Below are positions 4,198 through 57,270 of a DNA stretch of 64,000 nt, piece after piece. The DNA is taken from positions 26,275,564 through 26,339,563 of the forward strand of contig CAIIXF020000007.1 of assembly GCA_903813345.2 (NCBI GenBank). Direction: 5' to 3'. The notes beneath the pieces are model-generated. The model was not told the origin of the DNA and ran no database searches. It worked only from the letters and a program-made list of their open reading frames with translations. The position numbers and the translations under genes were made by a program. This DNA is from Owenia fusiformis (Eukaryota > Annelida > Polychaeta > Sabellida > Oweniidae). The first letter of the stretch is position 1. Each line of letters opens with the position of its first letter.

Positions 4198-7100
4198 TCA
4201 GTCATCTTGTAATTTTAGTATTTCATCTTTGTGGTCTTTATAAAACACTGGAGTTTGTTGTTTGATGTCTTTGGCATTAGTGTCTGCACCTGCCTCAAGT
4301 AACAGTTCTACCAACTCATCTGATATCACATAGGCATAATGTAGAGGTGTTCGAGATAGCTGAAGTAGAAGAAATAGAAAGGAATTAAATTACAGGAATC
4401 TCAATTTATGAATTTATGAGATAAAATGATACTTTTGAAATCTTAATTCATGGACATCACATGTAGATATACCTGTTGTTATTATTTAGGTGCTTATGGT
4501 TTAGTTTTGCAAGTTATGCTTTTCCTATTTTAGGTTTCAAGAAAAAACATGATACACGCTTTTCTGTCAGCTTACATTGGGGCTTTTTTGCAGTCATGAT
4601 AGTGTTCATCTTTCTAAGAAGATTGTTACTGGTGCATATGTTAGGTTAATGCATTGCTTACAGAAAAAGCTCAAATAGAGATGATAAAATAATTTCATCT
4701 TTGAGACAGGGAAGATGCAAACAACCCACCAACCAACCAACCCTGATTTTCAACCCCTTCCACCCCTGCTTTTTCAATTTTTGTTGCATCAATATGTTGC
4801 GTGAAACTCAATAAAAATGCTCTTACATTGTCTTTGGTTGTTAAAGTTGATGGGAATTGTTGTATTATAAACTCTGCAGCATCTTGGTGTCCACCAAGGA
4901 TGGCAATATGTAGTGGTGTAAGGCCTTTCTCAGACTTTGATAGCGCTAGTTTCTTTCTGTCCATTACACCCTGAAGGTCTCGTAGCACACCAGCCTTGGC
5001 TGCTTTGTGTACATCATTGATTTTCTCCTAAAATATGAAATTTTATTTTATTTATCTTTATTTTATTTTTTTTTATCTTTTAATTTATTTATTTCAACGC
5101 AAAAAAAGATTTACACAAGAATTATAAAGCACTCAAAAGAAAAAATACAAAGTCTTGCAAGCGCTTGAAATTTTAATGTAATATAGGAGTGCAGTTTTTG
5201 ATGTCTCGATCAAATAAGGAGGTGGAAAGACGTAAAATATCAGCTAGAGATAAAGTATATTGTACAGAATTTCTAGACATTCAGACGCTCCATTTAAATT
5301 TAAATGAAAAATTAAAGAGATTTAAATCATAACAAGAGAACTTTTTAGGCATATATTTATTGTATTGTTTAGTACTTGAGCTTACCAAATAGTTAGGAAT
5401 GGAGTTGATCATCTCTTGCATGTCTTCAGTAAGAGCATTTTTGTCCATCTTTTCCACAACTTCATTCAGCTCCTTGGCATAACCATTCAATACCAGCCTC
5501 TGTATGGATTCCGTCTGCTCTAATTTGAAGAGCTCTTGCACGGATGAATCTAAAAACAAAGAATATTTTGAGTAAGACAAAAATTGGTTCATGAAAATGC
5601 AGGGCTGCTAAGGGATGATGTGAAAAAGTGATGTGATTTGATATTATTCAAAATGAAAAGAAATGATAATGAATAGATTTGAATGCACCTGACGTAATAT
5701 TGATCAGGTTAACAGGAACTGTCACTACCTCCCTCAATTTTCTGGATTAATGCATTATTTCAAATTGCATTTTCAAACTCACCTATAACTTCTACATGCT
5801 TGGTATGGCCAGCTTCTAGTGCAATATCCCTGGGAGTTTTACCATGACTGTCCCTCTCTGCAATGTTATGTCCCTGTCTGATCAATGTAACTATGTCACT
5901 CTCTTCATCAGCCGCAGCTCTGTGGAGCTCTGTCTGTCCAACATCATCTTTCTGAATTGTTTGCTGGATGTCTTCTGTATCTTCCTTGATGGTGGTAAGG
6001 TTCGGAGGTTGGGCGAGTAGTGCAGTGTCTTTAGCTGCAGCTCTGAAAAGTTTCATTATGTTATGAATAATTATTTTCAGATGTGATTTTCAGATATTTG
6101 TACTTGGTTTGGTGTAGAAGTTCATTTAACATTAAGTCTGTTGGTCTTTGGAAAAGTGTCCTACTAACACAGATTTTCCATTTCTAGAGGTGTTCCACTT
6201 TACAAGTTTTACTGTATGTCTAGTAAGTTGAACAATTTAACATGTGTTAGAATGAGCAATTACTATTTATCCATAATGTAGAAATTATTGATCTTACCTC
6301 CTTGCCATATCCTCCTGTTCTTTCTGTTTGCGTTTCTCCTCCTCTTCTTTCTCCCTCTGTTTCTGGAGCTCCTTCTCCTTGATCTCAGCCATCTCCTTCT
6401 GTCTTCTCTCCTTGCCCCTCTTCTCATCCTTGTTGTTTTGGATCTCCTGCTTCAGTTGTTCTGCCATGTCTCTTTGCTGGCAAATCAATAGTAAATATTG
6501 ATCGTTGTGATTTAGAATGGAAAGGAGTTGGATATGCAGTCACACATGAAAATGATTCAAAATTTTAGAATTTGAGAGGAAAAGCATTGAATCATTTCTA
6601 TCTTCACATTTGTAGACTTTAAGGAAATTCAAATCCTAATAATTTACATGATATGTACCAAAAAATAGATTGAAATTATTGTGGTTCACCAATAAGCTTT
6701 CAATGGTATGCATACCTCTTGTTCATAAGATTTATTGTCAGAATATTTATACAGCCACTGAGCCAGGAACTCTATAGGGTCCCAGGGGCGTTTATCTGCC
6801 AACTCAGCCAGAGCCATTGTAAGAGGATACCCAAGTTGCTCAGATACATATTTTCCATCTATTGTCTCAGGTGGTGACACGCCCCGTCTAGTGAACACAT
6901 CACGATCATTGGGTCGGTTATAAAGGCTCAGATTGATAGATGGGGTGGCTGGTTTAGAATCACCTGAAATTTTCGACATTTTTGAATATAGCAATTAAAT
7001 GTAAAGGATGAATTTGATTTGATTTTATATCAATACTTGGACATATTTAATCTTGCTTCTATGAATGTTCATCTCTTTGGTAGTAATGTACAAAGTTGTT

Positions 7101-9562
7101 GATTTTCTTTTCAAAATATAATTTTATTTCTGAAGAAGTAGGATGGACATCCTACGAAACGTCAAAAAGAAAAAGAAATATCTCTGAGAAAGAAAATCAA
7201 CAACTTTGTATATTAAATCTTGATTTATTTTCATAATATGGGATTTACTAAGAGTGGTAATAAGATCTGCTTTTGATGATTAGATTTGAATCTCTGTTTT
7301 CTGTTAATATTCAATAATATGAAAATCAATTTTCATTTACCTTTCCCTGCATTCCCTGACACTGGCCTCGCTGTAGGCTTTGCAGATGAGGAAGATACTG
7401 GTCGAGAACCATCTTTACTTTTAGCCGATCCTGACCTTGATTTATGAGACCAGGGCCTCGAGGGTGATGAATTCTTCTTCCTCTCCTGTATTTCCGAGAG
7501 ACGAGCTTGCAACTTTTTCACCTGCAGATATGCTGGGTCGTCTTTGTAGTATTTGGGGTCATGTTCAGCCTAAGGTAGATATTGATTTGTCATTACATGC
7601 ATTTCTATCGCACCCTTGGGTGCTATATTGTGATCAGTTTGTGCCGGGTAGACTGGCATCCAGATTAATCTTGTTAACAGGTTTTTAGCCAAACTATTTA
7701 ATTTAATGGGGAAATGTTAAGGTGGCCATTATGGCATCAAAATCATTAGATTTTATCATCAACTTACCACATCTTTTATGGTCTCATCTGCACCTCCTCT
7801 GATGAGAACATTATACATGTGACCTCCATCTCTAGAGGCTGCTGCATAGTGGAGGGCAGTACGACCCATCTGAAACAAATATAGCTTTATATCATACATA
7901 TATATTCAAATATGGCCACTATTGGAAAATAGTTAAAAAGGAAAACTAAGGTAGCTAATGCATCTTTTGTTCAATGCTTGTAACTAGAACATGATATGGT
8001 CATCAATATGAAATTTATTTTAATATAAGGCTCCATTGGTGCTGAGGATTTTCTGAATCGGTTTTATGTAGGGATAATGACCCAATGGCAATGAGCAAAA
8101 GCAGAAAAAAACATGAAGGTCTTATTATGAATAATTCATACCAATACTATAATAGACATGCAATTGGCACATATTCTATTCAGTTAACATAAGAGTGTTA
8201 GCACTGATTAGTAGAACTACAACATTTGGTTTTAAAACAACTAAAAAATGATGAACAGTAAATAAATCATATGTAATTCACACAGTTCTTGTTCATCTTT
8301 GTTGTTCATATTTTGAGAGGGTAAAATGGATAAAATAGAAAATCAGGACTTTGCTTCGAAAGACTGAATTCTTAAGTTGTACATAGATGCCACAACAGAA
8401 ACAAATTTCAAGATAAAAAAGTGAAGTTAACATTTTTAGAGAAACTTTATTAAACAATTCTCACATTGTCCTGGTTGTTAACTGCATTGGGAAAATTCTG
8501 CAGGATTTCCCTAATGATGTCAGAGTGCTCGTAAATTACTGCTTTTTGTAGTGGGGGGATTCCCGTCACATCCCGAGCTAAGACGATAATTTTTCTATCC
8601 ATCATGGTCTGTACAGAACGTAGTTCTCCATCTTTGATCGCCTTGTGGATCTGGTAGACCTTGTCCTGAAATATATAAATTAGCTTGATGAATTTTTGAA
8701 ATGTTGTATCTGTGTAGTGAATGATCATGCAGAGGCTAAAATGAGAACTTTAATTGCATCCATTTGAGAAAACATCACGAGGAGAATAATGTCTGTTTCT
8801 ACTTAGTAATGCATTATGCAGAAAAAATACTTGTCTATAAACTTGGTATATCCATACTAAGAAAATTGAACATAAGCTAGTGCACATGACGTGAAGTACC
8901 ATAGATGAAATATGAAATAATCGAAATGTGAAAATATTTGTGCGTCATGTTGTGACTGTAAGAATTCTAGGGAGATATGACTTTACATTAAGTTAAATCC
9001 AGTTTGTTATTTAAGCCTTTTGGCAAGCCTATAGAGGAATGACATTTAGACCTGTATGTGCAATACCAATGTTATTAGTCAGATTGTTTATTATACCCTG
9101 CCTACATTAACTCTAGCAAGACAACGAACTCACCTGGAAGTCTGGAAGTCGTCTAATGATATTCTCAACATCTTCATTTTTCTCTCCATCTGGACTGTAC
9201 CTAACTGGCTTGGTCAGGTACCCAGCCAGAGCCAGCTTCTCAAGGACCTTCTCATCTCCCTTGTTTATAAGTTCATGGAGATGGTTATCAACAGCCTCCT
9301 CTACATCTCTGGGGTACTCATTATCACATATAAGGTCATACGGAGTGTCGCCATTCTCATCACGTTCTGTGATGTCACTAACAGGAAGTAAGCTTTGGAT
9401 GACATTCTTGCTAACTTTTGATTTTATCGCCACATGGAGATATGTCTCCCCTTGTGCATTTTTTATTTTTGTATCTTCATCTCCATTAATTAAGTTCTTC
9501 ACTTCTTCAGTATTGTTATCTTTGATTGCTTTTAGAAGTTTTGAGCTGTCAAAAGTAGTCAT
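4198..9562 (-). CDS. Gene B: ankyrin repeat, Dpy-30 motif and coiled-coil protein (10 exons, 724 aa)
   Basis: Coding exons: 9562-9134, 8665-8465, 7869-7768, 7569-7341, 6963-6716, 6476-6298, 6042-5783, 5549-5386, 5027-4827, 4359-4198. All have GT/AG sites and consistent phases, and the total of 2,175 nt divides by three. Domains: ankyrin repeats in residues 1-245 (TYLHVA, GRTALHYAAAS); a basic Ser-rich linker at about 270-320; a Dpy-30 motif at about 359-400 (DKRPWDPIEFLAQWLYK); a charged coiled coil at about 404-463; and more ankyrin repeats to the end (GQTELHRAA, GLTPLHIAIL, RTPLHYA). Dpy-30 motifs dimerise and dock amphipathic helices, as in radial-spoke and histone-methyltransferase complexes. 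A ciliary role is inferred from Dpy-30 plus coiled coil and from the CCDC34 host. The start ATG opens the first exon directly. No family name is recognised. Confidence 0.87.
6716..6963 (-). CDS. Gene B exon 5, Dpy-30 motif
   Basis: Residues about 321-403 of gene B. The Dpy-30 helix pair reads YVSEQLGYPLTMALAELADK, then RPWDPIEFLAQWLYK. The exon ends at GAG with donor GTATGC, the same position relative to the motif as in gene A exon 12, so the intron predates the duplication. Confidence 0.88.
7089..7210. mobile_element. MITE, about 120 bp
   Basis: Perfect 20-bp-class inverted ends (tacaaagttgttgattttct at 7089 and its complement ending at 7210), lying in intron 4 of gene B. The interior contains gaagtaggatggacatcctacgaaacg-like sequence. 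Confidence 0.75.
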
Positions 9563-10750
9563 GATTTACCTTTCAATGTCTTGGATTTTCTATTATATAT
9601 TTCCTTTTTTAAATGTGAATTTAATTCACTATAATTCTTTATGTTTCTCTGCTATCCTATTATAATCACAGTCTCTCTCTAATGAATTCTGTTAGTCTGT
9701 AACACTGTTGCAAATAAAACAAAAATTGGATCAATTTTTCATAGGCTTCTATAGTAGGAAATTCCCTATACAGCTATACTGTCTCCATGTAGACATAAAT
9801 CCCATAGCAACCATATTTATACATGTTAAGGGCCCCGTTGAAAGGAATGCCATTGAATAGATTTCTGTTCAATATTTGTATAAAAGTTTATATTGACCCT
9901 AGGTATTATTCTATAGCCCTAATGGATTTCTATAGAAAGCAGAAATAAAGTAAATAAAGTTAAAGAACATGGATTATATTTTTGTAAAGGTGTATGATTT
10001 TGAATAGATCGCTAGATGAAGGAAATGTTTTACACAAGACGAAAAGATTCAAATCTACAGTATTTTGAGTTGAAAATGTTCATCTTGCAGAATAATATTT
10101 TAAAACAATAATTCACATGAAACTTACATAATATTTAGCAAATCACAATTTTTCAAAATATGACTGGTTTAAATGGGGTCTGGATTGTTTGTGTTTAACT
10201 GATATTTTTCTCTATGTGGCAGAGGACTTGGAATAGCATGTATAATTTTTCTCATATTGGAAGCTACTTACATACAGTATTATGAAATAAAGATAAAATT
10301 TTCTTGATGTTTATTTTATCAAACTTAAAAAAGATTAAGATTAAGTCAGATGGCTGAAGGGGTCTCACTTTTATTGTCAGCACTTTTCTGCTTGATGGAT
10401 TGATTAAACATTTTCATGGATATTTCAAGAGCTTATTTAATACCCGGGGCTTAGTTGTGTACCAGACAAATAGAGAAACGACACGACATCTGGGGCTTTG
10501 TTTGGTCTTCATTAGACAATGTTGTATAGTGGGGTAGATTTTCTCAGATCTAGGTACCTTTTTCTGTACCGTTTTGCGGTTATTTTACTCTATGGCATTG
10601 CAATCCGTTCACATCATTAGCTACATAATTGATTAATAAATATATGACATGTAAAAAAGGGTTGATACGAACAGAATAAACAGGGAAATGTAATTTAAGT
10701 GGCGATTGTGTTTTCTGCTAATGTATATCACCCTGCTTCGGAAATCCCCC
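9563..10750. other. 5' flank of gene B, nothing coding seen
   Basis: AT-rich spacer upstream of the gene B start. No exon and no clear promoter motif could be supported. It ends at the 3' end of the LINE copy. Confidence 0.3.
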
Positions 10751-16700: not shown

Positions 16701-19700
16701 CCTACAACAACATTGATCCATTTGGCCAAGCTTTTCTTTTTCATTTTACTTGCTACTGGTTACTGATTCATTCATTCCAGTTCTTTTAATGTTCTATATT
16801 ATAGTGTGTGCCAAATTGCTTTCTAAGTGGCTTAGTTAGGCTAAACCTATGTTGTGGTAGCTTACTATGAATTGACCCATAGTCATTTTAGATTGATCTA
16901 TTATCTATTCATTTTTACTTGTCTGCAGTCAAAATAGTGACACGAAAGGGCTAAACGGCTTGCACCAAGGTGCGACCGTCAAAAAGATGAGTTTGCAAAA
17001 TATACATTTTTTTTAAATAATACTTGTAAGTATATAAAATAAGACGCAAATTTGATATTGATGTGTAATGATAGTCCATTCGAGTGTAGTAATTTTATGA
17101 AAAACAATTATGGTAAAAAAATGGATATTTATGACCTTAAAATGCGTTTTCAATTAAAAATTTACTGTTGTCAAGGATATTATTCCTATTTTATATAGTC
17201 CATGTTTTTTAAATATACCAATAACCATTTCATTAGTTTTTGACAAAGTAAATAATTATAGGGCTCACACAAGGATCAACTTTGTTCATAGCAATTTCAT
17301 ATTAAGTGATGTTTTGAAAAAATACGAAGGTAAACTCAATTTTATTTTTTATTTGTTGAAGAAAAAACAATTGTATGTTTGTTTTCTTGTTTTGACTGAA
17401 AAATCTCAATTCATCGCCCTTGCTTCGCAAGCAGGAGAGTCTACACCAGTACGAAAAAGTCTTTAAAAAGCTGATCCTTGTGTGAGCCCTACAATTATTT
17501 ACTTTGTCAAAAACGTATATAATGGTTATTCGGATATATAAAAATCATTTAATAGGTAAAATAGGAATAGTATCATTGACTTTTGATTTTGAATAAAAAA
17601 GTATTACGAGCATTTAGTGCATCACTTAGTTTATAGCTTGCAGACAGTGATCTAAGGGACATCATCTTGTAGTAATGGGTGTGACAGTGATGAGAGGGAA
17701 TTGATTTTATTCGCAAGTTTTGACAATCCTAGAAGTATTGATGGTTTATCTTACGGACGTCATATTAAAAGATACCAATTTGCATTACATCAACATCAAA
17801 GAAGTTTGATTTGTTTACAGATACGTACGTGATACCTGTAGCAGTTGCACTAGATTGATATACAACAAGATATTATATGTGAGCATTCATTGCAACATTT
17901 ACTTAAGAGTAAAGAGTAGTAATTTTACTAAATCTGATGGAAAATTAGATAATTTAAGTCTATCTCTTTTGGTTTATTCAATTTAAATATTACTTTTGCA
18001 ATAAAGATACCTTAGTTTTGAAGCATTGGCAGCAATTTCATTTCAAAAAAATCAGTTTTCAACTTCGTATGTTTTATTCATAAAATATGTATTCAACATA
18101 GGTCAAAAGTCAGGGTCATTTCAGGTTTAAAATATCAATATCTAGGATAATTGGCATTTTAAGACATTTTGCCGATGGTGTGACCCTTCACAACCGATGA
18201 TTATGTGACCTGAGGTAAAGATCAACTGAATGGGTGTAGGTAATTTCAAGGTCAATATCTAGCAATTTGGTGTTTTAAGGCAATTGAGAACAATTCTGAC
18301 CCTTAACAACCGACAACCTGTTGTCAGGGTCAAGGTCTATAGGTCAAGATGATTGCAAGGTCATCAATATCAAAGTATTTGGCGTTTTTAGGGTAAGGTT
18401 ACCATTTGTGAATCATGAATGTGTGACCTGAGGTCAAGGTTATTCCAATGTCAAATATCAGTATCTAAGTATTTGGTGTATTAAGGCCCTCTGGTATCTG
18501 CTGTGGCCCCTAGCGACTCATGATAGGGTGACTTCCAAGGTCAATATCTAGCAATTTGGAGTTTAAAGGCAATTGAGAAGAATTGTGACCTTTGGCGACC
18601 AATGATTAGGTGACCTGGTGTCAAGGTCATTTCAAGGTCAATATCTAGGTAGTTGGCAAATGTGGGGCTACAGTCCTATTTAATGACCAATGATAAAGTG
18701 ACAAGAGATCTATAAGTCAGTGTTTATGGATCAAGATCATTTCAAGGTCATAGCTCAATATCGAATTAGTATTTGGCGTTTTGGGGCTGAACGTGTTTTT
18801 GTGAAAACAATATGATTTTTCTTATGTAAAGTCCCTGTGATAAAAATGATATCATCCAACTTCTTCACTTGAAAAGAAAAAACATCATGAATCCCCCTCA
18901 ACCTTTATTTTTCAACTTATTTTTTATGATTTCATTCTGGTTTGATTCCTTGAGAACTTAATGATACGCTACATGATTTTACTACTATATGTACGGGTAT
19001 AAGCATCAAATGTGGTGCCACCTGTTATTAATAACATTCGTAAACATAATGCTTGAATGTATAAATAAATTGCAATTGAAAATATAAATATTTGAAAATA
19101 TATCTGAAATATTATTGATAAGATCCCCACCTTGTCACTTTTTGAAAAATATTAGGCTTATTTTCTAAAGTATTTTTTCTTAATTCGAATATATCAAAAG
19201 TACTTCTACGCTAATGAATTAACAAATTCTGAAAAGGGGACGGGTATTGAAATGTGATAAAGTTAAAAACCACAAAATCCATGTTATTTACCATTGGAAA
19301 AACTCAGACTATCCATCGTTTTCAACATAATTTTGGTCATTGAAAATTCATATCTCCAAAACTACACTTTCATTACAATTCTACTAATGAAAAAGTTTTA
19401 GACCACTTGTTGAATAATATTTTCATGCAATTCAAATAAAAAAGAAGAACCTCTGTTGAGTAAATAATTTCAAAAAAAATGTTGAGATGGGTTCCCCATT
19501 CATAGTTTTTTAGATTGTTTGAATGATATTTTTATAATGATTGAGAATTGAATTTTCTTGAAAGATAACATATTGTGTTTTTGAGAAATGTCATATTTAT
19601 ATTGAGAAAGTAGTCATGGTAAAATATATGACGATCAAATATCACTTGCCATACTATACCTGGTCCTTTGCCAATTTGAAGTAAATTGTAAAATCATATC

Positions 19701-32517: not shown

Positions 32518-34179
32518 CTAGTCATCTTTCTGTTTACTATTTTTGAACAAACACATTACACATCTAAATATCCATCTAATAATGATGAAGATAATTGTCA
32601 CAATTACAGCCAATATAACAGCCAGGAATATGAGGACGTCCAGCATGAAATATTGGAAGAAACTCAAATCTTGTAGAGGTTTTGATACCAAGTGTTTGGC
32701 ACCATTCGTTTCGATGACATAATTGATCCAGAATAGGAAAACATCCCTCGGCTTGTTAATATTTTTCTGTATTAACCTTGAAGCTATCTTTGCATTTTCC
32801 TTATATTTTGGGTCCTCCAGAACAGAGAGGATTGCTTCAACAAGGCTTGTGTTTGTAATTTCTCTATGATCCATGCGTAATTCAATTCCCATTTTGAGCC
32901 TCTTAGTCAGTTGGGTTGAGTGCTTGAACTGGTCGACAGCTATGGGAATTGTGATAACTGGAACTGCATGGTAAATTGTTTCGTATGTTGAACTCACACC
33001 ACAATGTGTTATAAATAGTTTAGTCTTCGGGTGCCCCAGTAGATCATTCTGTGGTAGCCAGTTTACAAGATGTGTATTCTTCCCCAGTGACTTTGGTGGT
33101 TTACTGTTTTTGGGGTATTTCCATATAACTGTATAAGTTAAACCAGCAAATGCAGAGGCCATTTGTTCGGTAACATACTCAAGGGTTCCATGCGTTGGAT
33201 TAAATATAGATCCAAAACTCACGATAATCACACCCCCTGGTGAGGCATTCTTTACAATATTATCAATGTGACCAGAAAGGGGATTTGGAGGTTGGAAGTA
33301 CATGCCCCCAATATTGACATGATTTGGCATCACTGGTCTAGGGTAGTCCAGAACAAAATGGTTATTGCTGAAATGTAGCGATGTCTTTCGAGAAAGTGTA
33401 TTCATTGTTGATAAAGAGGCGTTAACCTTATACTTAATCCGTAAAGTATCCATATCCAGTAACATGGTATAATAAACGTATTGTATGACACTGTTTATCA
33501 ATGTGCTCTGTACACGTTCTGAAAATCTCATATCATCAGGGAACCCCACAACAAAAGGGGTTACAAAGGACCATGGCGCTGGATGATTTAAATGCCCAAA
33601 GTAAGTATTGACCAAGCCCCCTTCGTTAGAGTATGTTACAGTGGCGATGTCAAGATAGTCTATTGACAAACGGGCACACTCTTCAACATAATCCACTAGC
33701 ACAAGATCAAACTTGATTTTTTTTAATTCATGCAAGATACCACTTTTGAGAAGAGCCTCGCAGTACGATATTGTGAGATGTTTTACGAGAGAGGCCATCT
33801 CAATGAAAGAGGTGTTGTGGGCCTTCGCAACTACTGCATCATCTGTAACAAGCCATGCATCATCGGGAATCTTAAACTTGTAGATTTTCACGTCCTTAGA
33901 TATTGGACGATTCTCTTCATCATATCGGTTGTTTATCATCAATGAGACAGAGTGCCCATCTTGTATCAAGATATCTGCAAGTTTTTCCATGTTCATTAGT
34001 CTAGAGTTAGTCCCCTGAGTGTAAGGAATAAGCAGTATGTGTACAGCCCACACAGTTTCACTTATGACCCCACAAAATACTAGCAAAAGCAACATCAACA
34101 TGATGTTAAGTCTGTTCCATATGCAGAAGTGTAGCCACACAAGCTGAGCCTCACACTTGTACAGTGTTTTATGTCCCAA
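32518..34179 (-). CDS. UDP-glycosyltransferase (UGT family), single exon, 553 aa
   Basis: Transfers a sugar from a UDP-sugar to lipophilic acceptors, in the ER membrane facing the lumen. A signal peptide starts at Met27 or Met29 (MLMLLLLVFCG); ATG at 34,101 is a plausible alternative start to 34,179. The UGT donor-binding signature spans about residues 374-417 (WLPQNDLLGHP, FITHCGVSSTYE, PIAVDQ). One C-terminal membrane span lies at about 509-536, followed by a basic tail ending KQKDD, which fits the KxKxx ER-retrieval signal. Length is normal for the family. Oddity: the position that aligns with the catalytic His of the usual SH pair is Ser59-Arg60 (GTNSRLMNM). The partner Asp163 (LVLVD) is present. 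The acceptor is unknown. No introns, which suggests retroposition. Confidence 0.92.
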   Translation of the reverse strand: MGHKTLYKCEAQLVWLHFCIWNRLNIMLMLLLLVFCGVISETVWAVHILLIPYTQGTNSRLMNMEKLADILIQDGHSVSLMINNRYDEENRPISKDVKIYKFKIPDDAWLVTDDAVVAKAHNTSFIEMASLVKHLTISYCEALLKSGILHELKKIKFDLVLVDYVEECARLSIDYLDIATVTYSNEGGLVNTYFGHLNHPAPWSFVTPFVVGFPDDMRFSERVQSTLINSVIQYVYYTMLLDMDTLRIKYKVNASLSTMNTLSRKTSLHFSNNHFVLDYPRPVMPNHVNIGGMYFQPPNPLSGHIDNIVKNASPGGVIIVSFGSIFNPTHGTLEYVTEQMASAFAGLTYTVIWKYPKNSKPPKSLGKNTHLVNWLPQNDLLGHPKTKLFITHCGVSSTYETIYHAVPVITIPIAVDQFKHSTQLTKRLKMGIELRMDHREITNTSLVEAILSVLEDPKYKENAKIASRLIQKNINKPRDVFLFWINYVIETNGAKHLVSKPLQDLSFFQYFMLDVLIFLAVILAVIVTIIFIIIRWIFRCVMCLFKNSKQKDD

Positions 34180-34365
34180 TAAATATTTTGTGGGCTTTTG
34201 AGTTTTATACTGGATTTAGCTCTAATTTGTTGAATAAGCGTACGTTGGCAAGTTAAAGTTGCGTAACATGTTTTGGCATTACTCCACATTAGTTGTCTGG
34301 CCTTAACTCACTCAGAACACTTAAAGTCCCCATATAAAGTTTAAACCACTTTGGCTTATATTGTA

Positions 34366-39965: not shown

Positions 39966-40013
39966 AAAGTCAAATAGCAGGTTGAAAGTGACCGCCTAAT
40001 AATTTTTTCGAAG

Positions 40014-40646
40014 ATGGGGATAGAATCTTACAACACGCCGGGGACAGCGAAAGAGAAGAACGTTCGACAGAGACAGATCCGGCAAAACTACAGAACTACG
40101 AGCTCCCGTTTTCCATGTTTACCCCAAGCACCAAGTGGCCCAAGTATTATGAGCAGCTTCTTCTACGGCTGTAAGACCAACGGCGATAGCATTGAATTCA
40201 CAGATATTGAGCAAGCTCGATCGTCGTTGAAACCTTGGTGGGCTCGGCGCAAAGAAGATGCTAACGGACCAGATAAATTATTTCCTGATGGAAAACAAGT
40301 TGAAGAGACAATTATCTTACCAAGTGTAACACCAAAGAGGACATTCATCAGACGGTCGAATGCGCCTGTCAAACAGGATCACGTTCGCCTACCAAATATT
40401 GAAAACAACTACAGCTCAAATTCAACTTCTTTGAGGACAATTGAACACGAAAAAGAAGACTTCAAATTTCCTGTACTAAACAATGCATGGATTCGTCCAA
40501 GGATTGTCCGTAGACAAGAATCGATAGAAATCGTTCAACAAGATTCTAAAGAATCGAGAACTTTAGCAAGATTTGACAGTAGAACTATAAGTAAGGACGG
40601 ACTGTACCTGCCGCAAATCAATGTAGATGTCAATCTGGACGACTGA
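40014..40646 (+). CDS. Unrecognised 210-aa protein, single exon
   Basis: ATG in strong context (A at -3, G at +4). The whole frame is one exon and stops at TGA 40,644-40,646. AATAAA signals follow at 40,773 and 40,784. The product is basic and hydrophilic, with no signal peptide, membrane span or coiled coil, and is probably largely disordered. Short Pro-centred motifs recur (CLPQAP, IILPSV, VRLPNI, FKFPVL, LYLPQI), and there is a possible anchor SLKPWWARRK. Codon use and composition look coding, unlike the surrounding AT-rich DNA. I do not recognise the family. The Pro motifs could be short linear docking sites, but this is speculation. Confidence 0.6.
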   Translation: MGIESYNTPGTAKEKNVRQRQIRQNYRTTSSRFPCLPQAPSGPSIMSSFFYGCKTNGDSIEFTDIEQARSSLKPWWARRKEDANGPDKLFPDGKQVEETIILPSVTPKRTFIRRSNAPVKQDHVRLPNIENNYSSNSTSLRTIEHEKEDFKFPVLNNAWIRPRIVRRQESIEIVQQDSKESRTLARFDSRTISKDGLYLPQINVDVNLDD

Positions 40647-41931: not shown

Positions 41932-44900
41932 ATGGCACTCCGCTTAAAACAAAGACAATATCTCAATTTGACAACTTTAACACTGAGTTGTTGGATTATT
42001 CTTTTGGCGATAAGCATAGGTAGGTAGTCTTTAAACAGTTTATTCATTGTTTCATTATGGTGATCTTAATATAATCGAATCTCCGTTCATTTTTGAGGGT
42101 TCATCACGTGATCTGTTTTCTTATTTCCTCAACAAGGAAGTAATTTTTCTAAAGCTCTAAATGACTTGGGTTGGGTGTATTGAATACCAGAAGTACAGAT
42201 TAGTTATTTTCGAAAATACGTTTCCTATATACTTTTTGAATGATCAATCATAAAATGTTATTTGCTTATAATGTCACTTTGTATTTTTCTCCAACGGTGG
42301 TAGCAGTTTTTATTTATTTTCGTCTATTTATTTGTTATTTAGTACCAAGAACTTAGTGTCATATTTGTCAAGTATTGAATTAAAAACGGAAGTCAAGCCT
42401 CAAAATTAACTTAATACTGAAAACCGAGCGACCAGTCTTTTTTCTTAGCTTTAAGACTTCAAAAGACATGCCAAAACTAAAAACAAATATTGTAAAATCC
42501 AAAGTGGCAACAATATTTTGTCCAGGGGCTTTTTGACTTACAACATTTTGTCCAGGGGCTTTTACAGACAGTTAAGTCAAACCTGTTTTTGACTTCCCTA
42601 ATAAAAAGCCATCATGACAATACATGTCAACTTTTTTCTTTTCTCAGCCATCACGAGATGTTATGATATTATATGTTAGGTTTTGTGATCGCAAGTAGAG
42701 CTCAGAGTTAATTTTTTTAGATTTTTCATCTCAGCGCATGTACGTCATCCGAGTTGATGTAAAGAACTTCAACAAGATGTATTATCGATAAGTGACTGGT
42801 AATCACATGTTTATCAATTTTGATCATTTTATAACAATTATCTAAATCTACGTCATATCATGCTGGTATCAAATTAATTATTCATGTGACGATTCTGTGA
42901 CTGCTATCTGAAAGCATTGAAATCCTAAATTATAACAAAGATGTCTTCGATTATTTCATATCGAAGGTTAACTGTCTTCGATTATTTCAAACCAAAGATT
43001 TAATGAATTTGATCAAATTAACGAAACTACTTTATTTTGACACATATTCTTGGTTGATTTCTATGGTGTTGAAAACTCATATTGAATACTTTACACATAT
43101 GTAAGCTTACATGTAGTCAGACTAATATATACGAGAAGGCCTATAAATGGATGTTTTAACTTATAACAACACTCCTCGAACTAAGATATACGTTTATTGT
43201 GCAAGTCATTCTCTACAACTGGCTGTTTTTAACTTATAAAAGAGTACGACCATGACAGCATGTTATTGACAACTATTTTAATATAATTTTGAAGATGTTT
43301 GACTGAACATGAATGTACTTGTAATTGCGTGTCAGAGAAATCATGTTTTCGTCTGGGTGTAGTCTCGTATTTAACCGGCCAAAAAATTTCAAAAACCAAA
43401 GGTTCTAAAACGGTGATTTCTGTCTTCGCCACTATTCGAATCATTTCTTGATTGTTTCTTATGTTTTATCAATGATGTATTCTATTTTCTCAGAACAACT
43501 TCGTCAATATTGATGAGTTTGACTTACCTTTTTTGATAAAAACGCAGATTTTTGTGATTTCTTTGCACTTGTTAATGAATCGGCGAGAGCATGCCGAGAT
43601 AACAAATGTAATTTCGCAAAAGTTGAAATAAAATAATATCACTGTTTCTTCTATTGAACACCAATTGAAAGTTTTTCTCGAAATTGAAAAAGTTATTCCA
43701 AAAATTGTTACAATTAATGTGCAATCTCTTTCAAATCTTAAAATACTTAGAGTGTATAGGCTAATAGACCTAAAATATAGTAACCTGGAACATGCAGGCC
43801 TGTAGCCAGGGGGGGGGGGAGCTGGCGGAGCGGAAGCCCCCCCCCCCGGCCAGAAATTCTTTCAAAATCATGCAGTTTTTCACCATTCTGAGAATTTTTC
43901 GCATGATTTTTAGCCAAAATTGTGAAAAAGCTCCCCCCTGGAAAAAAGCTCCCCCTCCTGGTAAAAGCTGGCTACTGGCAAGACATGTACTACAAATGTA
44001 AAGAACCTTACTTAATTTGCATATCATATGCATCTACTTTCTGAATTGATGACTGAGGTGTTTCATCCTGAGCGAAACGTCATGTATTCTACCAATACGA
44101 TAATTCCACATATGAATAAATAGCCATTGGTAAAATTGGTAAAAAGCCGCGTTACCTATCTCCACCTTGCTTATATCAATATCGTTATGTCATAAACTAA
44201 ATATATATTTTGTTGATACCTGTTTTTCAGAATGTGAAGGCAAACGGACGTATAGGTCTTACAGGTCGACTAGGTCCACTAGGTACACCAATACCACCAC
44301 CTATACTGGGTATGTTATACCATTATAATAGTTATCTAGTGCCAAGTCCGCTCTACATTCTAATCAGAGAGATGGTGTAGTACTCGATAATATCATATGT
44401 CATCATATCAATATCATATCAACTATCTGACTATGGGGATGGGGATTGTGATGGTCAGTTGTATGAAACCAATAAAGCAAACGTAAAGTGCCCAAAAGCA
44501 ACTATCATAGCTTCATTCTACAATGACCCTGCAAATATTTACTATCTCGCGTTTGTGTTTTTGAGCGACTTAAAGGGATTATTGGTTGCAAAATCGCAAA
44601 CCATAGAATGAATCCCATCTTCGATTGCATCATTTTCCGCGCAGAGCGTTGTAAAAACATATGCCTATTACGTCAGAATGAACCAATGGAAAAAATATGC
44701 AATGATATTAATTAATATAAAACATCCTGATCCTGAACATGAATCGATCACACTAAGTTGTCTTGTGTGGTCATGACGTCATGTACGTCTAGTTTCATTA
44801 TCACTGTGATTATCTTTACAAATAGATAAAATGATATGAAATAAAACAAACTTAAACAGAAATTCGTCCACACAAACAACGTTGCGACCATCAGTGAATG

Positions 44901-47900
44901 AGGATAAAAATATGTTGTTTGGGGTAAATTCTTGTTTCAATTTCATTCATTTCAGTTTCTTCATAATGTCAAGTTCTAAGTTAGATTGATTTTTGCATCC
45001 TCCGAACGCAAGCCTCCAGAACTCGTACCTTCTTCTTCTGGAAGAAGAAAGGAATTTAGTGGATGACGTCTGGAACCCTGCGTTCGGAGGATGGATTTTT
45101 GTTACACTGACGTTTACTTTGCTTCTCTACGCTTGTAGTTTCATCATGCCTATCTCCTATGCTATTTGCAACTGTGGGAGAAACATGGTTCAAAGTATTG
45201 TCAAATGAGGCTTCTTCTACCTACCATTTGGCAATAACATGAATCATTTTACCGTTTTAATGCTGATAATACCAAGCTATAATGACATTTCATGGAAGTT
45301 TGGGAATAAGATAAATACTTATGAAGGCACAAACTATGCCTCAGTCACATTTAATCTACGGCAACCGTACGGCGACAGTAGCTTCCCAAAATCGAGAGAA
45401 ATATACAGCATAAAATATAGAGATAAGCAGTATGATGTAGATTTTCTATATCGATTTTGTGAAGCTACGGCCGCCATACGCCCGCCTTAGAGTAAATATG
45501 ACTGAGGCCTAGTGTGACTGGTAATGCGAATTTAGGTACTCTGGAGTTTGATCTACAGTGAAACGTAAAGTGGTACACTGCGAGAAAAGGAACACAGAAA
45601 AGGAACACCTCTGTTAGTGGAACACTTCAGAGTCCCAAGACAGTTACCTATATGATAAATGAACCTCTGTAAGTGGAACATCTCCCAAGTGGAACACTTT
45701 TTGAAGTACCAGATGTGTTCCACTGAGACAGGTTTACTGCAAACGAGCCAATATTGAGTAAGATCAAATGATCATCTCTCATTCGAGAATTATATGGATA
45801 CGTATTCTATCTATTCTATACATCCTGGTCCCATTAACACTGTGAGCCTTATTGGTAATTGCAGTTCAGATACCATATTCAACTACCCAGTGCTTATGTC
45901 CAGTCTCTTATCAACTATGGTCGGTGTTGTCATCTTGACGGGTGTCTGGTGCGTATGTAAGGCTGGCATACCAGGTACCGTTTCTCAAAATGGCGGTAAG
46001 TTTCATGTACATTCTGCATGAATAACACGCATGTATACACTGGTTCCCGTCACGTGTGCACTTTGCAGTAGTACAATCAATGGTTAAGGTAGTTCCGTAT
46101 GTTCAGAAATTTTAAAGACTTCCTAAATGGAGCCCTGTGTTATTTCAGGAATACATAATTCATTCCATGCATGGTCTAAGCCTACAATATTTTCAGATTA
46201 GCATAGGAGCATTAATAACCTTAGGCTAGTGGAGGATTCTAGATATGTAATAAAAAGGAGAAAATTCAGTGACCTACGTTTTGGTACTTTTAAAATGTTC
46301 ATACATTATAGAAAAATTATTTACCCTCATCTAATAATCTAGGTACACATGTTTGCTTTTTTGTGCAAAACTGAAAGGTGTAGACCAAGAATGGAATGAG
46401 TTATACGTTCAAAAAAATAACATGGAAGTTATAAAAATTTCTGAAAATATAGAATCCACATCATGGGTGCTGCTTCTAAAAGTGGATGACTTCATCACAT
46501 GCTGAATTTCTCTCTTCGATCCCCTCTAATTTCTGTTCTTGTGATTACATCTTCCAGCTCCGCAACTACCGATGCCGTCGCTCAGAATCTTCTCAGACAG
46601 ATCCTGATTGGAGGAGGTGTCGTTGTATTCGGCCTCGTTATAGGCTGCATTTTCTTATTCTGTTGTAAAGCGTGCATCCATAGCATGCTTCCATGGGGTG
46701 CTGGTAAGATTATAGTTGAATAAGTTATTGGGACTGATCAAGTTTTGCTTGCGGTGCTTGGTTCTGGAAAATATGGCATATCACGAAAAAAACTAACAAC
46801 TCATCCTTACCTACCCAACACAGTTTCCCATCCTCCCGAACCATATGGGACGCATGCGTAACATCAAAATTCACTGTGACTTGGAACAGAAAAACAGCTA
46901 GTGAAAGCAGTGCGTTCGGAGGATGTACCCACCCATCTACCAACCCTTAACCCTACACTGCTTGTACTACTGTAGTATTAGGTGAATGCTTGCTTCTTGC
47001 AGGTTCTTTGGTGGAGGTTCAACCGCAGGTGTTGTCCTAGGTGTAGCTATCGTCGCTTTGTTGACCGGATGCTTTTGCTGGATGTGTTGCAAGAGGCTTA
47101 AAGCCTGGCAAGCCAAGGAGAGTAAGTACCAGTTTAAACCGCTTTTTGGCGCGGTTTACAAATTCCAAACTATGGAGTATGTAAAAGACCTGGGCCAAAA
47201 CAATTGACACACCGAATATTGACTGCGTGGGTTGAAAAGGTAACGTGCATCACTTGCAACATTGAGTCTCCCTGCTTTTACCTCCCCTACAAACATATTA
47301 ACTTATATGAGATTCAGAAGACGTCTTTGTATCTGTAAAAGCATTGCAGATGAGTTTTGGTTGCATCTGTTTTTTTAATTGAGGTCATGTTGGACTCCTG
47401 CAAAGTGCTAACTAGCCTATTTTCTATTTTAAAATTCAAACAGCTCACCATTTTTGGTAGGTTTTTACATTCATAGGTCTTATAATCAATTTCAATTAAT
47501 TTGTGTAGGCAATTTGTATTGTACAATATGCATGTAATATTATCATCATGTTCATGATTGTCCAAACATCCTATCTTCAGGAGCCAACGCCAATCGACGC
47601 AACCCAACTGAGCATACGAATAGAGCATATTCCCCCGATGAACTGGATACGACCCCTCCACCCTGGATCCGCACCATCCAGTTGCACTGTGCCCTGGAAG
47701 CATTCCGCTGGGATCCAGAGTTCCATTCTTCAAAAATCATGATGGAAAGCCCGAGGGTGGCTGAATGTCTCGAATCTGACCGTGGTGCCACGCATGGTAT
47801 TATGGGGTCACATGGAATGAACTATGGACAACATATATGGGAGATAAACTTTTTAGGAGATAACAGAAACGCCAATAGGTCAGTTGGGGTAGCCAATAGA

Positions 47901-50453
47901 GGAGCAGCATTAGAAAATAGCACATCGGTCACACTAGTTGGATACAACCTTTACTCTTGGGGCCTGAATTTAAAATCCAAAAAACTTTACCATTTTGGGC
48001 GTCCAATCGGTACTTACCCTAATAAGGATACCAATTTTAAAGTTCCAACTAAAATCCGAATGTTTCTTGATATGAACTTGGGCACCCTTGCCTTTGGTAC
48101 GGAGAATGAATATTGGGGAGTAGCGTTCCAAGATTTGCAGGGCGGTCGGGCATCACTCTTCCCGATGGTTGCCACAAATCTGGCCTCTGACAAAATGATG
48201 ATTACGTACATTGGCTCAAGTAAGTAAATTGTTTATAATATTTAGATGTGGTAAAATCATAGTCAATGATACATAAAGTGAGGGATTGAGCATTTTCTTA
48301 ATGTCAGAGAATAGCGCTTGCGTTAATTTCATGTGTACGCTATAGCTGACGTTAATAAATAATTGTCTGAAACCAAGAATGAGAAACTTGACAAAAAGAT
48401 ACACAATAACGGGGCAATAAGGACTGTAGAGAAAATGGGAAAGTTTTTTAATTTTTTCTGAGCTATCAAGGCAACATTTGGTTTTTTAACATCTTCTTTG
48501 ACATACCTATTTTCTTAAAAGGTATGGATAAATAATTAATTTCAGCATTAAGAAGTGTAAATTCAGTTGAAAGCTTCAAAAAGGGGACTTCCACTTTTAT
48601 ATTTTTAAGATCCACCATGTTTCAAGAGGAATATCAGCTAAAATAATGTTTATCAAGGGGGTTTCTTTGTAGATAATAAAAATAGATGTTAGTCTTGAGG
48701 AAATATCCAAACTTAAATATATTTTGACACTGGTCCATGATCGTTGAATGACCCCTCACAAACAAAATGATTATACTGTATAAGTGACAAAAGTGTACAA
48801 TAGGGAGGTTAAGATTAGCGTAAATAGTCCACTTACAGACTCACGTATACCAATACGTAGTTTGTTAATTAATGCATTCAGAAATACAAACATACGAATA
48901 GGTATACGTATATTTTTACGTTAATCTTAAAATCCCAATAGCTCTTGTTCTCCCTCCCTTTCTTCCTCCCTCCATCTCTCACTCATACGTGTACTCTCGC
49001 ACTAACTGTTCTTTCTTACCTCCTCTCTCCCTAGCCCTAATCTCCATCTCCCTTCCCTCCTCATGCCTATCTTTCCATCCCTCCCTCTCTCCATGGTCTT
49101 TCAATAGAACCCCATGCTCTCTCTTAATATTTCGGACTACTATTTCTAAAATTGTATATGGAAATAATGCTTTTCACCATTGTACCATTTCTGTTTGTTA
49201 TACTACAGCATGTCCACCTAGTGATGGTCTCGTTCATGAAGGACTTCCAACAATAACTGATGGCACTCTACCGCCCTATGCACTGCCAGGTGCAAGTCCA
49301 TTCAACCAGATGTACAGCCCACCATATCCATCAGGTAGGTTCATAATATACATTGAAGTCAACACTCATACGAAACGCATTTCAGTCTCAACGCCAACAA
49401 GGGAGTTTAAGATTAGAATTAAGCGTAAACAGCCCATTTACGATTGCGATAATTAATGACCTAAATGTCCAAAGATTATGGTAATTCGAAAACGTATGTT
49501 TTTGTTAATTTGATGATGCATTAAACTGTCGAATCTACACATTGATCATCAATTTTGCTTATTGTAAATGTATGATACATGAATTAGTCATTTGCCCGTG
49601 CGTCATGCCTTTAAGTCAAGTTGAGCATGGCTTCTCAAGAAATCACTATTTACAGATGGCAAACTAGAAATCGGTAACTTCAAGGAGTACAAAATACCAA
49701 CGAACAACATATTCATGAGAACTATAATGCTACATTATGATACTAATATCAGTGTCATATAGCCTTTTTGTGAAGAGATCGGGAAATGATTGTGAAATCA
49801 AACATTTGGCGGCCATTTTGAATTTGGTAGCCATAACTTGTAATCACATGGGCCACGTATGTATCAATATAAACAATATTAGGCGGATGTATAGATGGAA
49901 CCATTCTCTTTATCGCCTAAACTTCGTTCGATGGGATAATTACGATTTTTATGACCGCCAAATATGTCACGTTTATATCTCAACGTGGGATCCATTATTT
50001 AAAGAGGTGTTGCTAAACATTTTGGGTGATTTGTAGATGGAAATATTGTGTTTTCCAGATGGAAGCAGTCAAATAACCACGTCTCCGATAATTCATCAAA
50101 ACTATGAGCCAACATCCCCTGGTGATCTACCTCCGTCCTACGCTGAAGCAATTGCAAGTTCAACAGAAACATTAGCAGCTAATCCTGCAATCAATGCTAA
50201 CCCTGCAGTTGATGCTAATCCTGCAGTTGATGCTAATTCCACAATTAACAATAATCCTGCAATAACAATGATCAGTGTCATAAATGATAATACTGCAAGA
50301 CCCAACTCTGCAAATATAACAGACACAAGTCATCCTAATGCTGCTACCACAAGCGCTAATACTGCTACCACTAGTGCTGATACTGCTACCACGAATGCAA
50401 ATACTACTGTCCCTTCAAGAGCAAATCCTGCAGTCATTTCAACAGAAATTTAA
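41932..50453 (+). CDS. Single-pass membrane protein with cytoplasmic SPRY domain, PPxY motifs and alternative TM exons
   Basis: Constant exons: 41932-42019 (signal-peptide-like MALRLKQRQYLNLTTLTLSC, then hydrophobic), 44231-44309 (27-residue Arg/Thr/Tyr ectodomain with an N-T-T site), 47581-48219 (SPRY), 49209-49334 and 50059-50453. Between exons 2 and 4 one of three TM exons (45865-45995, 46558-46703, 47003-47121) is inserted, giving 485, 490 or 481 residues; phases close exactly. Exon 4 has SPRY features: GSHGMNYGQHIWEI, VGVANR, MFLDMNLGTLAF, WGVAFQDLQGG, LFPMV. The tail holds LPPYALP, SPPYPSG and LPPSYAEA, candidate WW-domain (NEDD4-type) ligands, then Asn/Ala/Thr repeats. Poly(A) signal AATAAA at 50,577. 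A receptor or adaptor that couples a membrane anchor to SPRY partners is inferred. No family name is recognised. Confidence 0.75.
43796..43981. mobile_element. MITE, 'ctgtagccagggggg' family (copy 1)
   Basis: Begins ggcctgtagccagg with a G run, contains aattctttcaaaatcatgca, and ends gctggctactgg. Family members lie at 51,592-51,766, 56,135-56,209 and 59,782-59,981. Confidence 0.8.
44996..45093. repeat. 15-bp inverted repeat, third copy at 46,911
   Basis: Arms catcctccgaacgca (44,996-45,010) and tgcgttcggaggatg (45,079-45,093) are perfect complements. The right arm recurs exactly at 46,911-46,925, indicating a dispersed element in the TM-exon region. Confidence 0.8.
45013..45194 (+). CDS. 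Candidate fourth transmembrane exon (weak)
   Basis: An open segment encodes a hydrophobic stretch, GGWIFVTLTFTLLLYACSF, followed by AICNCGRN. With an acceptor at cgcaag|C and a donor at CAAA|GTATTG it would also be phase 2 in and phase 1 out. Both sites are poor, a better-looking acceptor at gaaag|G (45,053) is equally compatible, and part of it overlaps a 15-bp inverted repeat. Treat as possible only. Confidence 0.25.
45560..45745. repeat. MITE fragment, 'gtggaacac' family
   Basis: Repeated words aggaacacctctgttagtgg, aacctctgtaagtggaac and aagtggaacac, immediately upstream of the first TM exon. Confidence 0.65.
45865..45995 (+). CDS. Transmembrane exon, version 1
   Basis: 131 nt, acceptor ggtaattgcag, donor G|GTAAGT, phase 2 to phase 1. 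Encodes SDTIFNYPVLMSSLLSTMVG, then VVILTGVWCVCKAG and a short polar end. One hydrophobic span is followed by a CxCK juxtamembrane motif. Confidence 0.72.
46558..46703 (+). CDS. Transmembrane exon, version 2
   Basis: 146 nt, acceptor acatcttccag, donor CTG|GTAAGA, phase 2 to phase 1. Encodes SATTDAVAQNLLRQIL, IGGGVVVFGLVIGC, IFLFCCKACIHS and MLPWGA. The span is Gly-rich with a CCKxC juxtamembrane cluster, a likely palmitoylation region. Confidence 0.75.
47003..47121 (+). CDS. Transmembrane exon, version 3
   Basis: 119 nt, acceptor ttgcttcttgcag, donor GAGA|GTAAGT, phase 2 to phase 1. Encodes FFGGGSTAGVVLGVAIVALL, then TGCFCWMCCKRLKAWQAKE. It aligns with version 2 over the Gly-rich span and the GCxxxxCCK block, so the two look like duplicated exons. 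Confidence 0.75.
47581..48219 (+). CDS. SPRY-domain exon of the membrane protein
   Basis: 639 nt, acceptor tatcttcag, donor TCAA|GTAAGT, phase 1 to phase 1. A single exon holds the juxtamembrane linker (SPDELDTTPPW) and the whole SPRY/B30.2-like beta-sandwich, about residues 110-310 of the protein. Confidence 0.82.
49656..49762 (+). CDS. Possible alternative terminal exon
   Basis: After atttacag an open phase-1 frame of 34 codons runs to TAG at 49,760-49,762 (DGKLEIGNFKEYKIPTNN...). It starts with the same ATGG as the regular last exon. Using it would remove the PPSY motif and the Ala/Asn/Thr tail. No independent support. Confidence 0.25.
49795..49945. repeat. Single unit of the GGCCATTTTGA repeat family
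   Basis: Contains tttggcggccattttgaatt and ends aaacttcgttcgatgggata, matching the ends of the composite element at 1831-3320 in the opposite sense. Confidence 0.65.
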
Positions 50454-50568: not shown

Positions 50569-50598
50569 CTCTTGAAAATAAATTTCCGTTTTCAAGAG
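50569..50598 (+). terminator. Poly(A) signal within a hairpin
   Basis: AATAAA at 50,577-50,582 overlaps the left arm of a perfect hairpin, ctcttgaaaa / ttttcaagag. It lies 124 bp after the stop codon of the SPRY membrane protein. Confidence 0.5.
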
Positions 50599-56209: not shown

Positions 56210-56626
56210 GGTTAATGTAAAAATTTACGTAATTTACTAGTAAGTTTTACTTCATCATTTAGAATTGTAGCTAATACAGAGAAGACTTGGGTGGTAAACT
56301 GTGTACTTGTCACAGTCTGATTGGTCGCTGAGCTTAAACCTCCAATTACATCATTCTTTCATTAAAGGATGACATCAAATTAATTATTTTGAAATTGTTT
56401 AAAGTTGGCAGGATTTCCTAGGATTACAGAGAGTTAACTTTAAGAATCAACCTTCATTATAAAGTAATTTGACAAATGATCTCTTCAAAGGTCACATTCA
56501 TTTATTTTTCTTGGCAAGATTTTAACGAAGACAGTCTGAATTATAATAAGGCACACATGGTGGACAATATGGTACCAAAAAGACATTAACATGCAAAATG
56601 CTTCTTTGTCATTTCACTCATCTTTG

Positions 56627-57177
56627 TTGATACACTCACCTTATGTCAATACACTCACCTTATGTCAACACACTCACCTTATGTCAATACACTCACCTTA
56701 TGTCAATATACTCACCTTATGTCAATATACTCAACTTATGTCAATACACTCACCTTATGTCAATACACTCACCTTATGTCAATATACTCAACTTATGTCA
56801 ACACACTCACCTTATGTCAATACACTCACCTTATGTCAATATACTCAACTTATGTCAATACACTCACCTTATGTCAATACACTCACCTTATGTCAATACA
56901 CTCACCTTATGTCAACACACTCACCTTATGTCAATACACTCACCTTATGTCAATATACTCACCTTATGTCAATATACTCAACTTATGTCAATACACTCAC
57001 CTTATGTCAATACACTCACCTTATGTCAATATACTCAACTTATGTCAACACACTCACCTTATGTCAATACACTCACCTTATGTCAATATACTCAACTTAT
57101 GTCAATACACTCACCTTATGTCAATACACTCACCTTATGTCAATACACTCACCTTATGTCAATACACTCACCTTATG
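56627..57177 (-). repeat. 19-bp minisatellite, 29 copies, each unit a 5' splice site
   Basis: The plus-strand unit is tcaatacactcaccttatg; the minus strand reads GTGAGTGTATTGACATAAG repeatedly. Every junction recreates ATAAG|GTGAGT, a consensus donor. Six units have ac for cc (AAGTTGAGT) and lose it. Units 3-15 and 16-28 are identical, so a 247-bp higher-order block (56,666-56,912 and 56,913-57,159) has duplicated. The array abuts the exon at 57,172. The plus-strand Ser/Pro/Tyr-rich reading frames are artefacts of the repeat. Confidence 0.92.
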
Positions 57178-57270
57178 TTGGTTTGTAAAAGCTTTGCTAA
57201 ATAACCCTGCATTGCTGTAATACTTAGAATAGGGGTCTAAACTTTCAACAGGCTTCCTCCATACATCAAT
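57172..57270 (-). CDS. Penultimate exon of the unidentified minus-strand gene
   Basis: Acceptor catatttttag, then 33 codons: IDVWRKPVESLDPYSKYY, SNAGLFSKAFTNQHK. The donor AAG|GTGAGT is the outermost copy of the 19-bp minisatellite. Phase 0 on both sides, in frame with the terminal exon at 55,390. Using any inner donor would add 19 nt and hit a TAA after five codons (VSVLT stop), so only this donor gives the full protein. Confidence 0.55.

Follow-up and report, generated by a model that had tools for sequence, protein, structure and literature searches.

Three consecutive exons of one predicted gene, here called A, B, and C, each encode a transmembrane (TM) anchor and appear to constitute a frame-locked, mutually exclusive cassette of alternatives in a small single-pass protein with an SPSB-like SPRY domain, a reading that we hold with reasonable rather than strong confidence. 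The gene lies on the + strand of contig C7, within the 64,000-nucleotide stretch of Owenia fusiformis DNA that we analyzed (the window). The exon anatomy is real, and it probably serves a functional three-way choice of membrane anchor. Frame-locked alternative TM exons, as originally predicted, remain the best reading of this anatomy; that all three are used, we infer from the sequence. Counting against a cassette are the weak acceptor of A, the absence of shown similarity between A and either B or C, and the presence in each of two paralogs of one convincing TM exon.

Organization of the predicted gene

The host gene consists of E1, E2, one of A, B, or C, the SPRY exon, and the tail exons D and E (Table 1). 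From position 40000 to E2, at the thresholds applied, no hydrophobic candidate other than E1 began with an ATG and had a phase-1 donor, and a scan from E1 to A for internal exons that enter in phase 1 and encode two or more Cys found no additional exons. With A, B, or C alone, the full frame is open to a single terminal stop and encodes 485, 490, or 481 amino acids, respectively, and an AATAAA lies at 50577, 3' of coding exon E. The predicted product is a small single-pass protein composed of a signal peptide, an ectodomain of about 27 residues, the anchor, an SPSB-like SPRY domain, and a proline-rich tail. Since its predicted constant ectodomain, ECEGKRTYRSYRSTRSTRYTNTTTYTG, is this short, the label "receptor-like" attached to the gene in the original prediction is a generous one.

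Table 1. Predicted exons of the host gene and repeat elements in its introns (window coordinates).
Feature	Position	Strand	Description
E1, predicted first coding exon	41932..42019	+	Signal peptide MALRLKQRQYLNLTTLTLSCWIILLAISI; phase 1 out; in frame with E2
E2, short ectodomain exon	44231..44309	+	(E)CEGKRTYRSYRSTRSTRYTNTTTYTG; phase 1 in, 2 out; from splice sites and frame
98-nt element	44996..45093		15-nt inverted arms TGCGTTCGGAGGATG; intron E2-A
TM exon A	45865..45995	+	131 nt; phase 2 in, 1 out; helix ends WCVCK; weak acceptor
TM exon B	46558..46703	+	146 nt; phase 2 in, 1 out; GLVIG in helix; motif GCIFLFCCKAC
Third 15-mer copy	46911..46925	+	Intron B-C; could pair with 44996-45010, and A and B would then loop out
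TM exon C	47003..47121	+	119 nt; phase 2 in, 1 out; GVVLG in helix; motif GCFCWMCCKR
SPRY exon	47581..48219	+	639 nt; phase 1 in, 1 out; SPSB-like SPRY domain
Tail exon D	49209..49334	+	Phase 1 in, 1 out; proline-rich, PPYALP and PPYPS; from frame and splice sites
Last coding exon E	50059..50453	+	PPSYAEA, short repeats, terminal stop

Other features of the window were recorded separately. Short tandem repeats of 18 and 21 bp occupy 50178-50405, within coding exon E, and a 222-amino-acid open reading frame (ORF; MGIESYNTPG...) lies upstream of E1 at 39978-40646 (+). On the - strand, 32518-34215 holds a 565-amino-acid ORF that is UDP-glucuronosyltransferase-like as judged by eye. Thirty copies of a 19-bp tandem repeat at 56607-57178 leave all three forward frames open (ORFs of 185, 204, and 226 amino acids), and these ORFs are probably repeat artefacts.

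Properties of the three transmembrane exons

The coordinates, lengths, phases, GT-AG borders, and open frames of A, B, and C are all as first described, and each exon does encode one hydrophobic helix followed by a Cys/Lys juxtamembrane motif. A GxxxG motif is found in the helices of B and C and is absent from that of A, and the juxtamembrane cysteines of each exon are those given in Table 1. Inner in-frame splice sites also exist: A has an acceptor at 45904 and a donor at 45974, and B has an acceptor at 46597.

All three donors are GTAAG, match the phase of the SPRY exon, and are U2-type by eye. Among AG dinucleotides on the + strand of the window, 17.5% score at least as high as the acceptor of A, 4.7% at least as high as that of B, and 0.03% at least as high as that of C. 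The TM-exon splice sites are thus decent and not outstanding, given these rankings for A and B and the loss of all three exons in a stricter splice-score scan that still reported other places. The GC contents of A, B, and C (46.6%, 50.0%, and 51.3%) mark them as exon-like and resemble those of the adjacent coding exons; the background averaged 33.6% (SD 6.5) in 2798 overlapping windows outside masked coding stretches, of which 2.75%, 0.82%, and 0.5% reached the values of A, B, and C, respectively.

The window was scanned for TM exons by a crude detector of splice sites (entry in phase 2 and exit in phase 1, 90 to 180 nt, Kyte-Doolittle mean of at least 1.7 over 19 amino acids) whose thresholds were fixed with the exons already known. 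On both strands of the 64 kb, it returned A, B, C, and the internal donor of A and nothing else. A looser scan returned B, C, and A (with its inner acceptor) and additionally picked up two places in identical phases, 5912-5994 (+) and 43784-43528 (-). Across 600 dinucleotide shuffles of 44310-47580, the detector found a mean of 0.012 matches and a maximum of 1; the Cys/Lys motif occurred in none of the shuffles, and none (0/600) contained three such exons. The three-exon arrangement is not expected by chance.

Frame constraints and proposed mechanism of exclusion

Each of the three TM exons has a length of 2 modulo 3, and the lengths differ by 12, 15, and 27 nt, all multiples of three. When E2 is kept, inclusion of A+B, A+C, B+C, A+B+C, or none of the three shifts the frame and leads to early stops; when E2 is skipped, every TM exon is out of frame. 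E1, which ends in phase 1, is in frame when joined straight to the SPRY exon, which begins in phase 1, so that a product without E2 and TM is permitted. The earlier claim that exactly one TM exon must be chosen accordingly holds while E2 is included and fails where E2 and the TM exon are both skipped.

In the mechanism that we propose, each mRNA would carry a single TM exon, with all three in use. Transcripts with double inclusion, or with loss of the TM exon alone, would be cleared by premature stops and mRNA decay, and the frame together with decay of misframed mRNA would create exclusivity at the protein level. By analogy with human genes, something more than frame alone usually separates such exons. 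According to the available text of Hatje et al. 2017 (PMC5740500), exons whose length is no multiple of three occur in 377 (60%) of the human mutually exclusive clusters, and reads joining two exons were found in only 83 (22%) of these 377 frame-incompatible clusters. Because of this 22%, regulated splicing is probably needed here too and would likely add to the frame-based exclusion, although our analysis revealed no mechanism besides frame. Steric or U2/U12 incompatibility is disfavored as the mechanism; steric interference is unlikely because the A-B intron (562 nt) and the B-C intron (299 nt) are far above the donor-to-branch-point distance of <50 nt that is taken as steric in the same source. 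Distant branch points, an idea taken from the available text of PMC7969005, were considered and rejected, the AG-exclusion zones of A (16 nt), B (73 nt), and C (19 nt) being within or below the 20 to 99 nt of the other four acceptors.

The SPRY domain and its family

The SPRY exon product matched the Pfam SPRY family (PF00622, E=3.8e-11). Among solved structures in the PDB, SPSB1 (E=3.8e-20), SPSB2, and SPSB4 (E=4.2e-20) were closest, and BTNL3 (E=6.8e-4) was the weakest of 12 matches. SPSB proteins are soluble and carry a C-terminal SOCS box. The host product shares the SPSB-type SPRY domain, and no SOCS box was recognized in its tail, given that D plus E (PPYALP, PPYPS, and PPSYAEA) had no Pfam match at E<=10, a search in which the HMMER filters discard most very weak matches. 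Unlike SPSB proteins, the host product also has a predicted signal peptide, TM helix, and proline-rich tail.

In butyrophilins, a single TM helix precedes a cytoplasmic B30.2/SPRY domain. The host product has a like layout with one TM before the SPRY domain, but it has no Ig match in Pfam and its SPRY domain is far nearer to SPSB. More broadly, the E2-TM-SPRY products contained no Ig, FNIII, or cadherin ectodomain among Pfam domains. The combination of a Cys-rich juxtamembrane region with PPxY motifs is reminiscent of Shisa, and membership in a Shisa-like family was rejected in the absence of a Shisa Pfam match at E<=10. We likewise set aside sub-cutoff Pfam strays for isoform B with SPRY (Adeno_E3 at 0.066 and Comm at 0.22) and for isoform C (FAM163 at 0.035, Adeno_E3_CR2 at 0.13, and TraL at 0.16); isoform A gave none.

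Paralogs in the genome

With the SPRY exon product as query, a search of the genome (498,259,871 bases in 525 contigs) returned seven places including the host gene, among them C7:23.34 Mb (36%, 9e-28), C1:11.40 Mb (33%), C4:21.38 Mb (two exons, 44-45%), C1:46.1 Mb, and C4:17.7 Mb. All five non-self regions were examined; of ten SPRY-domain places, five, located on C3, C8, and C10, were not among the matches and lie outside the comparison. Two of the regions, L001 on C7 and L003 on C4, hold TM-SPRY paralogs with one convincing TM exon each, located directly upstream of the SPRY exon and encoding a helix and a Cys/basic motif, with phase 1 into SPRY. LFPM near the end of the SPRY alignment is common to the host gene and these two paralogs; at that place the SPSB-like L002 has LYPLVSAVWG. 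These findings suggest that L001, L003, and the host gene form a small membrane-bound SPSB-like family in this genome. L002, L004, and L005 gave no TM-exon candidate in the looser scan despite the presence of hydrophobic ORFs.

Within 20 kb of each of these two loci, weaker candidates with phase 1 out were also seen. In the C4 locus, one lies about 13 kb upstream at 3735-3817 (phase 2 to 1), one at 9443-9650 could be a signal-peptide exon, and one at 17952-18114 falls within the SPRY stretch; the C7 locus has one at 9272-9366 (phase 2 to 1), about 7 kb upstream. By eye, all of them lack the Cys/Lys motif. The TM exon of the C4 paralog has two possible acceptors, one in phase 2 (score -2.2) and one in phase 1 (score 2.1), and with this ambiguity we do not claim phase 2 as ancestral. 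Among the loci examined, the three-fold TM arrangement is, as far as the predicted exons go, particular to the host gene, and the two paralogs with one convincing TM exon each imply that three are not required by the family.

Origin and retention of the three exons

Alignment of B with C gave an 18-residue block (GV......GC....CCK), with 59% nucleotide identity over 54 nt, a JC distance of 0.59, and matching third bases in 3/8 codons for the same residue. This score was reached by 0/1000 full shuffles and by 64/1000 shuffles that keep the hydrophobicity profile. Under profile-keeping shuffles, the scores were reached in 943/1000 cases for A-B, 284/1000 for A-C, 46/1000 for C versus the C4 paralog, 112/1000 for C versus the C7 paralog, 38/1000 for A versus the C7 paralog, and 59/1000 for the C4 versus the C7 paralog, all among ten comparisons without correction. 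The shared block and its standing against both kinds of shuffles make it plausible that B and C are duplicates, in line with the exon duplication first suggested. This suggestion does not extend to A, which matches B and C no better than profile-keeping shuffles do; similarity does not demonstrably tie A to either of them, and A may descend from the family TM exon.

To search for extra TM-exon copies in the genome, we used E2+B, C, and A as queries, which returned 3, 2, and 1 places, respectively, and no extra copy, in a search that weak matches may escape. Matches on C3 (E=4.1) and C9 (E=1.4, containing a stop), outside the host gene, were dismissed as noise.

That both paralogs manage with one convincing TM exon bears on an alternative in which a single TM exon of the host gene does the work, while either or both of the remaining two arose by recent duplication or are seldom used and non-functional. 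This alternative is unlikely in our judgment and is nevertheless the most serious of those considered. It fits with the weak acceptor of A and its lack of shown similarity to B and C and with the many gains and losses of such exons in mammals described in the available text of PMC5740500. However, A, B, and C are all intact, phase-matched, and GC-rich like the neighboring coding exons, and the divergence of B from C speaks against retention without function. We simulated neutral decay at d=0.3 substitutions per site per copy with an assumed 0.1 indels per substitution (4000 runs per exon). Only 2.2-2.7% of the neutral runs were left intact (11-13% without indels), and 0.6-0.9% were intact with a helix. 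If B and C are duplicates, their divergence is too great for a copy under long neutrality to survive intact by luck; the argument presupposes the duplication, which is itself suggestive at most.

Possible alternative first exons and 3' ends

A second alternative, which we regard as improbable, is that some or all of the TM exons are, or are joined to, alternative first exons driven by internal promoters, so that SPRY proteins without E1 and E2 are made. In-frame ATGs with no intervening stop occur upstream of the TM exons at 45794, 46499, and 46986, and an ORF resembling a signal peptide, MIISHSRIIWIRILSILYILVPLT, lies in intron E2-A at 45768-45841 (+); its phase-2 donor is weak (score 1.8), and the ORF could feed B or C or be due to chance. 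The TM exon of the C7 paralog can begin MEPSSILIL and may be a first coding exon; about 16.5 kb upstream of it contained no signal-peptide exon above thresholds, and a looser scan gave two weak ones. On the other hand, open frames upstream of acceptors are expected, since polypyrimidine tracts translate as hydrophobic sequence, and A, B, and C each open with an acceptor in the exact phase of the E2 donor, that of C being in the top 0.03%.

We give very little credence to the TM exons being tied to different 3' ends, with unspliced A, B, or C ending the protein past the helix to give SPRY-less forms: read-through stops are present at 46019, 46721, and 47205 and an AATAAA follows A at 46249, but all three exons have GTAAG donors in the SPRY phase and the introns after B and C contain neither AATAAA nor ATTAAA.

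Possible intron pairing and a dispersed 15-mer

Within the preferred reading of a mutually exclusive cassette, one conceivable mechanism of choice is that of Dscam1, in which selectors in the introns compete to base-pair with a docking site. Introns E2-A and B-C do have 15 nt of perfect complementarity (Table 1), and a duplex formed there would favor C. The best E2-A/B-C duplex reached -33.5 kcal/mol (40-nt windows at 44990 and 46904) versus -28.9 for the best of six controls, and among the six intron pairs compared, this pair alone outdid all its controls. For the remaining five pairs, 1 to 9 controls (of 6 or 15) equalled them; the A-B/B-C duplex outdid 14/15 controls, A-B/C-SPRY outdid 13/15, and the others outdid fewer.

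The 15-mer TGCGTTCGGAGGATG has 189 exact copies in the genome versus 0 for its reversed control, and two more inverted pairs, with starts 82 and 71 nt apart, are found on C5 among the places listed. The element looks like a short dispersed repeat of the MITE-like kind. Pairing that rests on such a repeat argues against a selector, as does the nearer partner at 45079-45093, which is 68 nt away and should win; in addition, A and B are left unexplained. The competing selector sequences for which a search of the introns had been proposed did not emerge, as no element was found to pair beside all three exons in this one species with coarse 40-nt windows and 6 to 15 controls per pair. We consider selection of the TM exon by intron pairing highly doubtful, and the 15-mer could have been co-opted to favor C.

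Possible consequences of anchor choice

If the cassette is used as we propose, anchor choice would set the attachment of one cytoplasmic SPRY module and hence the membrane or partner that it meets. Helices B and C may pack through GxxxG and helix A would not, and the differing juxtamembrane cysteines may lead to differing acylation. We tentatively suggest, as something short of an even prospect, that the anchor alone is what this protein, with hardly any constant ectodomain, has under regulation: the three TM/juxtamembrane exons would be interchangeable address labels, and their frame-locked choice would determine the membrane or oligomeric state of a single SPRY adaptor with an SPSB-like domain and a PPxY tail. 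A three-way adaptor version, if true, would be a natural experiment on the TM helix and cysteines alone, with respect to sorting, packing, and acylation.

Comparison with known systems

The original prediction knew of no described system of this kind, a claim that does not stand, since mutually exclusive TM exons are known both from Dscam1 (exon 17) and from arthropod N-cadherin (ME-18a/18b). An anchor-only swap is thus described for two arthropod neural cell-adhesion genes. According to the available text of these sources, Drosophila Dscam1 exon 17 exists as two mutually exclusive TM exons (PMC1397879 and PMC3364881), with the resulting forms routed to dendrites or axons (PMC9880076), and such tandem TM-swapping exons are found in Drosophila and other insects (PMC9880076, PMC1397879, PMC3364881, and PMC8042237). 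Dscam1 has two variants at this position, in contrast to three here, and has an Ig/FN ectodomain, three more variable clusters, and no SPRY domain. Arthropod N-cadherin ME-18a/18b is likewise reported to swap the TM domain, with graded homophilic interaction and unchanged localization (PMC2655722, available text). The N-cadherin exons encode two variants of 68-70 amino acids in a cadherin without SPRY, whereas the host gene has three variants with SPRY.

A further case is an ion channel that has multiple TM segments and, unlike the host gene, no tandem cluster of three. Alternative splicing changes one of its TM segments, as indicated by a title cited in PMC9329894. Among the titles and abstract openings listed from the open-licence PMC literature, we found no gene with three alternative TM exons, which does not prove absence.

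Judged by the available text of PMC5740500, A, B, and C have several of the marks used there for mutually exclusive exons, being neighboring internal exons with GT-AG borders, a shared frame, and no in-frame stop, and with length differences (15, 27, and 12 nt) that go in steps of three and stay within 60 nt. Sequence similarity, a further mark, is suggestive for B and C and is not shown for A. The human clusters of Hatje et al. 2017, as presented in that text, are likewise neighbors in the same frame that are not divisible by three and whose joint inclusion breaks the frame; they differ in being validated by junction reads, whereas the host cluster is known from genome sequence and includes an exon, A, without shown similarity to the others. 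By analogy, the host gene as we read it is a device of the Dscam1/N-cadherin type, in three versions and in an unrelated protein, and if this is true, anchor swapping extends beyond large adhesion receptors.
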